A stretch of 61,460 bases of DNA from an uncultured Gammaproteobacteria bacterium (GTDB lineage Bacteria > Pseudomonadota > Gammaproteobacteria > Pseudomonadales > UBA5518). Within the stretch, counting starts at the first letter, position 1. Every line of letters starts with the position of its first letter. Below, piece by piece: positions 1-56,607 of this stretch. The stretch lies in assembly GCA_903928015.1 (NCBI GenBank), contig CAIYPF010000116.1:91084-152543 (forward strand), read 5' to 3'. The position numbers and the translations under genes were made by a program. Below the pieces are notes generated by a model. That model was not told where the DNA came from. It did not search any database and saw only the letters and a list, made by a program, of their open reading frames with translations.

Positions 1-755
1 TCGGCGTCTGCCTTGGACAGGATGACACCAGTGAGCGGAATCGCATCATTGAACGCCCTAGCGGTCTGTGCTGCGTCCTGGCCGCTCATGGCATCCACAA
101 CGAAGAGCGTTTCGACGGGCTTGAGGAACGCGTGCAGCTCACGAATCTCGGCCATCATCTCCTGATCGATGGCGAGCCGACCCGCGGTATCCACGATCAG
201 GACATCGGCAAATCTGACCCGCGCCGTCTGCAATGCCTCGCGGACGATATCGATGGGGCGCTGGGACTCATTGCTGGGGAGGAATCCCACACCGATGGAT
301 TCGGCGAGCGTCTCGAGCTGGCGGATGGCAGCCGGGCGGTAGACGTCGGCACTGACCAGCAAGGCTTTGCGTCACTTGTCTTTCAGCATCCGCGCGAGTT
401 TGGCGGCACTGGTGGTCTTGCCGCTGCCTTGCAAACCGGCCATCAGGATGACGGCCGGAGCCTGCGCTGCGAGATCAAGGCCTTCGTTCGCTTCCCCCAT
501 GGCAGAGACGAGTTGTTCGTGGACGATCTTCAGGAATGCCTGCCCGGGGCTCAGGCTCTTCATCACTTCCTGACCGATTGCGCGAGCACGCACCTGGTCG
601 ATGAAATCCTTCACTACCGGCAAGGCAACATCGGCCTCAAGGAGGGCCTGGCGCACCTCGCGCAGCGTCTCCTGGATGTTGTCGTCGCTCAGCGTGGCCT
701 TGCCGGCGACGCGGCGCAGGGTCTCTGAGAGCCGTTCAGTCAGCTGATCGAACAT
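1..755 (-). CDS. ffh: Signal recognition particle GTPase Ffh (5' part, interrupted by an in-frame TGA)
   Basis: Ffh binds 4.5S RNA and signal sequences and delivers ribosomes to FtsY at the membrane. The N-terminal four-helix domain is followed by the P-loop GLQGSGKTT at about residues 107-115. Translation then meets TGA at codon 128 (bases 374-372). The same frame continues without another break to the window edge through the expected SADVYRPAA, VDTAGRL and PLTGVILSK motifs (codons 129-251), so the stop is a single substitution-type lesion, not a frameshift. ATG at 755 matches the family N-terminus (MFDQL). The M domain lies outside the window. Ffh is essential, so a sequencing or assembly error, or readthrough, is more likely than a dead gene. 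Divergent from the ypjD-like gene, as is usual in gammaproteobacteria. Confidence 0.93.
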
Positions 756-56369: not shown

Positions 56370-56607
56370 AGCCCTGGATGCGCTCCACTATCGCGACGAG
56401 TGAGGGATCGGGAACCGGCACACGGTTCACCAGCCAGTCGAAGATATCGGTGTCTTCCTTCTCCAGCAAGGCGCGGTAGGCCTGCTGGTCACCGGGTTCG
56501 AGGCCCGGATAGGCTGACTTGGCGAAGGGCATGAGGACGAGGTCGAGTTCCAGCATGCCGCGGCGGCTGTGCCAGTACACTCGCCCGTTGTCTGCGGACG
56601 TGTCCAT
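56338..56607 (-). CDS. sdhE: FAD assembly factor SdhE
   Basis: Promotes covalent flavinylation of SdhA (and fumarate reductase). An 89-residue five-helix protein with the required motif RGMLELDLVLMPF (about 16-28), which carries the RGxxE sequence that contacts the flavoprotein. DWLVNRVPVPD marks the C-terminal half. ATG 56607. Coupled to ygfX; divergent from ygfZ, the same three-gene group (ygfZ, sdhE, ygfX) found in E. coli. Confidence 0.95.
   Translation of the reverse strand: MDTSADNGRVYWHSRRGMLELDLVLMPFAKSAYPGLEPGDQQAYRALLEKEDTDIFDWLVNRVPVPDPSLVAIVERIQGYGRPRTTDTD

Follow-up and report, generated by a model that had tools for sequence, protein, structure and literature searches.

A TGA stop codon within the ffh gene of one draft genome assembly, probably an error or a minor allele

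The window, i.e., the whole stretch of DNA that was analyzed, comprises 61,460 nucleotides (G000:C116:91084-152543, in which G000 is the source assembly and C116 its contig CAIYPF010000116.1). The assembly is a draft of 4,266,414 bases in 220 contigs, with 97.2% completeness and 2.27% contamination. At the start of the window lies the ffh gene, which is cut by the window edge; on the contig the full gene has 457 codons and its own stop codon. The features of the part inside the window are collected in Table 1. The start codon ATG is located at 755-753 on the minus strand, and the in-frame TGA that forms codon 128 is read from 374 to 372, in the context ...GAC AAG TGA CGC AAA.... The earlier note had claimed this TGA, a single Ffh frame on both of its sides and a C as the following base, and all of this was confirmed. 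There is no frame change, the base 3' of the TGA is the first base of CGC, and the TGA is the sole interruption of the full-length gene, in which no other lesion was seen. The motif GLQGSGKTT upstream of the TGA is the GTPase P-loop.

Table 1. Positions of the interrupted ffh gene and its motifs in the window
Feature	Position	Strand	Remark
5' part of ffh, codons 1-251	1..755	-	gene runs past window to about G000:C116:90468
In-frame TGA, codon 128 of 457, C next	372..374	-	glycine codon in five congeners
GLQGSGKTT (GTPase P-loop)	411..437	-	upstream of TGA
SADVYRPAA motif	327..353	-	downstream of TGA, same frame
DTAGRL motif	174..191	-	downstream of TGA, same frame

The Ffh model TIGR00959 (428 positions) was matched over its whole length in one frame by the two pieces of the interrupted gene. 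The piece before the TGA covers positions 1-125 with 155.1 bits, the piece after it covers positions 129-428 with 412.2 bits, and each alone is below the curated cut-off of 473.2 bits. According to Pfam, the part before the stop encodes the SRP54 N domain together with 27 of the 196 GTPase domain positions, and the part after it the remaining GTPase domain and the signal-peptide-binding M domain. True termination at codon 128 would yield 127 amino acids without the M domain, a product that could hardly be a working Ffh. Internal restart was considered as a rescue and was rejected, because the products of the in-frame starts past the stop (the first at codons 132 and 156) would have neither the N domain nor the P-loop. 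An open frame of 241 amino acids lies antisense to ffh on the plus strand (window 3-728).

The top Ffh match was free of internal stops in every one of the 54 other genomes that were searched. Codon 128 was analyzed in an alignment of 109 relatives, which was composed of 29 of these genomes (those returned as loci) and the best 80 of 585 confirmed matches from genome_contigs; the two sources may share species. All 109 relatives, including these best 80 of 585, have a sense codon at position 128, and the stop is seen in the source assembly alone (1 of 110 rows). Thirteen different residues were found at this position in the same 109 relatives, i.e., E (29), K (19), Q (17), H (12), R (10), D (8), G (5), N (3), S (2), and L, Y, P and A once each, and tryptophan was not among them. 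All five glycines belong to the congeners G001-G005, so that none of the five congeners lacks a glycine codon here. On the basis of this tally, the position tolerates much, the genus has glycine there, and the TGA is private to the source assembly. The earlier note had described a variable site at which glycine or arginine would fit. The variability is borne out by the other 104 relatives and the glycine by the congeners, and arginine was met with in 10 rows that are all distant (56-62% identity). A record titled Streptomyces cinereus has an Ffh gene that ranks among the proteobacterial relatives, and this record is perhaps contaminated. Another observation concerns G001, which is listed at 6% contamination: a contig end (G001:C102:1-267) encodes an Ffh-like N-terminal piece that is 57% identical to the Ffh of the source assembly.

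Next, the state of the remaining gene is considered. The Ffh of the source assembly deviates at 0 of 155 near-invariant positions, defined by at least 97% agreement among 80 or more relatives. In the comparison with G001, dN/dS was 0.049 before the stop and 0.027 after it, and the downstream values in comparison with G005, G004, G002 and G003 were 0.041, 0.047, 0.081 and 0.119, respectively. Relaxed constraint or more lesions past the stop, as expected for a pseudogene, were not seen in ffh. After sites with disagreement between G004 and G005 had been dropped, 14 replacements could be assigned to one lineage, with 1 before and 6 after the stop in the source assembly and 5 and 2, respectively, in G001. 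This downstream excess (Fisher p about 0.10, computed by hand) is a weak and non-significant hint against a sound remainder. The rest of ffh is sound, without decay, and therefore a real stop would have to be recent or read through.

The genome was also searched for a second ffh copy, which the earlier note had named as one option and had asked to be looked for; none was found in the 97.2%-complete assembly. The SRP54 GTPase family has three matches, i.e., ffh itself, one on contig C92 and one on contig C65. The first of the other two is FtsY (TIGR00064, 369.6 bits, cut-off 260.7, positions 2-279 of 279), the second reads as FlhF by its sequence, and a full Ffh query matched only ffh and FtsY. 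The bacterial small SRP RNA was detected with 67 bits (cut-off 40), and with FtsY and this RNA kept, the SRP pathway is otherwise present. A DNA search of the plasmid collection returned just distant ffh genes (15 records, 64-73% identity).

The use of UGA in this genome was characterized by its terminators, its release factor and its tRNAs. TGA terminates 332 of the 396 called genes, and C is the rarest base after these terminal TGA codons (44/332). RF2 is encoded on the same contig as ffh, is intact and is 98.5% identical to the RF2 of G001 over 339 residues. The start of its gene carries CTTTGAC, the usual RF2 frameshift site, and therefore UGA is seen as a stop. The set of SelA, SelB and tRNA-Sec on which a selenoprotein depends was not found: SelA had no match in the assembly, all seven matches of the SelB-profile search were below the cut-off, and the sole match of the tRNA-Sec model above its cut-off was tRNA-Ser(TGA) (150 of 667 candidates scored). 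The marks of a UGA-recoded genome, i.e., rare UGA terminators, loss of RF2 and a tRNA with a UCA anticodon, were likewise not seen, the last of them within 35 tRNA places read in the Rfam tRNA search, a set that is seen to be incomplete. UGA recoding is very unlikely in this organism, because TGA is the usual stop, RF2 is intact and no selenocysteine system was found.

The tRNA-Trp gene on contig C3 keeps G24; G24A is a suppressor change of this tRNA. It also has the full 5-bp anticodon stem and not a 4-bp stem, and thus no suppressor change was seen. ARAGORN called a further tRNA-Trp at window 56432-56516, which the Rfam search does not include and which is probably a false call. Contig C3 (G000:C3:1-16829) breaks off within a tuf gene, beside tRNA-Trp, and a second tuf lies at its other end, which would fit an assembly break at tuf repeats. 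Among others, tRNAs for Tyr, Gly(TCC), Thr(TGT) and Thr(GGT) were absent from the tRNAs read. In G001, G002 and G003, four such genes form a cluster (Thr-Tyr-Gly(TCC)-Thr). The same four were also absent from the 26 tRNA loci read in G004, out of 35 matches, and therefore the family search itself may miss some. A pattern for the tRNA-Gly(UCC) gene was matched in 8 of the 11 genomes searched, the exceptions being the source assembly, G004 and G005.

The quality of the assembly was analyzed by a comparison with the congener G004. It comprised the whole of C116, C30 up to base 200,000 and the whole of C103, about an eighth of the genome, against stretches of three G004 contigs, and genes were called by codon usage. 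By the thresholds used, 338 of the 534 called G004 genes had a counterpart, with 113,592 codons. The raw listing for these 338 genes contained 8 stops and no frameshift-like place, and the ffh TGA was the only nonsense codon inside the body of a gene. The listed stops at C116:97186 and 97183 lie upstream of a gene start, that at C103:40420 upstream of another, those at C30:39259 and C103:39445 at the ends of called genes, that at C103:91310 antisense to a called gene, and that at C30:22838 beside a tRNA and in no called gene. In place of ffh, the caller gave two adjoining genes with their border at the TGA, and therefore the scan detects such lesions. In the reverse direction (334 of 466 genes of the source assembly), the raw listing for G004 had 6 candidate stops and 1 frameshift-like place. 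This GC-rich genome has many antisense shadow frames, by which simple scans for stop codons are swamped. Two earlier scans of this simpler kind, the stricter of which gave 5 to 14 raw stops per comparison in C116, were superseded by the gene-caller scan. The stricter scan had also given two frameshift-like places in C116, at 72.2-73.6 kb and 88.5-88.9 kb, and both of them have called genes on the other strand. The assembly is clean in the sample compared, and a high error rate was not shown. One isolated substitution error would be unremarkable in a draft of this size, which is our judgement and not a measurement.

Taken together, ffh has a single-codon lesion and an intact remainder, and neither a second copy nor recoding machinery was found in the assembly. 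We hold it, with moderate confidence, to be a nonsense difference of one draft assembly, i.e., a consensus or base-call error or a minor allele, and not the organism's working ffh. Either a wrong base or a dead-end or minor allele of a mixed population would have entered the consensus, and the base at codon 128 would be wrong or not that of the majority. In the living cells, Ffh would then be an ordinary one, encoded with a sense codon at this place as in the congeners. This is in agreement with the presence of the TGA in one of 110 aligned Ffh (including the best 80 of 585), the absence of decay (0/155 deviations, low dN/dS on both sides), the presence of FtsY and SRP RNA, the role of TGA as the end of 332/396 genes, the mere 127 residues that a true stop would leave, and the draft state of the assembly, with its 220 contigs and 2.27% contamination. 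On the other side stand the clean 338-gene sample, without a frameshift-like place or another nonsense codon in a gene body, the excess of replacements after the stop (6 versus 1), a weak hint, and the report of in-frame stops under purifying selection in bacteria (PMC7918605).

As readthrough, SRP suppressors and in-frame stops have all been reported, readings with a real mutation are possible. Of the options in the earlier note, a base-call or assembly error and a strain-level mutation with readthrough thus both stay among the readings considered here. The TGA could be recent, and the cell could live on a low level of Ffh that is produced by a near-cognate tRNA, probably tRNA-Trp, misreading UGA at a tolerant loop. 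We regard this as the next most likely reading, though a doubtful one. UGA followed by C is a leaky context, and C is the base least used after the terminal TGA codons. Position 128 is permissive (13 residues among 109 relatives, including the best 80 of 585), the sequence downstream is still constrained, and a review puts natural readthrough at 10^-3 to 10^-2 and at up to about 10% under stress (PMC10057733). However, TGA is the dominant stop codon and RF2 is intact, tRNA-Trp has neither the G24A change nor the 4-bp anticodon stem, no tryptophan occurs at the site in the 109 relatives (including the best 80 of 585), and Ffh at a few percent of its level would be expected to come at a very high cost. 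A living population with the TGA fixed, in which Ffh is made only by the reading of UGA (by a leaky tRNA-Trp, or by a suppressor tRNA that inserts glycine and is encoded in an unassembled part of the genome) and its supply is set by translational fidelity, seems improbable.

There is little likelihood that the TGA is real and ffh lost or nearly so, in a strain that bypasses SRP or is a failing lineage. In E. coli, suppressor mutations by which translation is slowed can rescue cells that lack SRP (PMC8299109; also PMC7844537), but ffh shows no decay elsewhere, and FtsY and SRP RNA are kept. Slimmer again is the chance that a mutant suppressor tRNA decodes a real TGA, in the simplest case an altered tRNA-Gly(UCC) that would insert the glycine of the congeners. 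Altered forms of tRNA-Gly(UCC) can act as UGA suppressors. In the source assembly, the tRNA cluster of G001, G002 and G003 was not found and contig C3 ends inside tuf, so that an altered gene may lie in an unassembled part. Yet the failure to find the gene is no evidence for a suppressor, because G004 and G005 lack the same pattern and have a sense codon in ffh; in addition, none of the 35 tRNA places read has a UCA anticodon, and an efficient UGA suppressor should harm a genome with 332/396 TGA-ended genes. That UGA is a sense codon or encodes selenocysteine in the source organism is hardly credible, as nothing beyond the single TGA speaks for it and it is contradicted by the terminators, the single in-body TGA in 338 genes, the intact RF2 and the SelA, SelB and tRNA-Sec searches described above.

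If the TGA is an error, its interest is only that a single wrong base is shown to be enough to split an essential gene in annotation. Were it real, we would have a natural example in which an essential targeting GTPase depends on stop-codon readthrough, and the pathway concerned is already linked to translation speed and accuracy by the E. coli SRP suppressors (PMC8299109). Searches of the literature on ffh nonsense mutations and on stops in assembled genomes gave no match by title or abstract opening.

Three known systems can be compared. A UGA-reading tRNA-Trp with a 4-bp anticodon stem has been described (PMC13092985); the phenomenon in the source organism would also be UGA readthrough, but its tRNA-Trp has the full 5-bp stem. 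Conserved genes with in-frame stops and purifying selection around them have been reported from across the bacteria; as a guard against sequencing error, an identical stop had to occur in at least two genomes (Belinky et al. 2021, PMC7918605). The stop in ffh is likewise flanked by low dN/dS, and downstream values are well below 1 in all five comparisons with congeners (0.027 to 0.119); in contrast, it occurs in one genome only among 110 rows (including the best 80 of 585), and thus does not pass this guard. In comparison with Ffh/SRP54 (TIGR00959), one codon is TGA and neither piece reaches 473.2 bits, but together the pieces span the model from its first to its last position, in the right order and in a single frame, with the N, GTPase and M domains.
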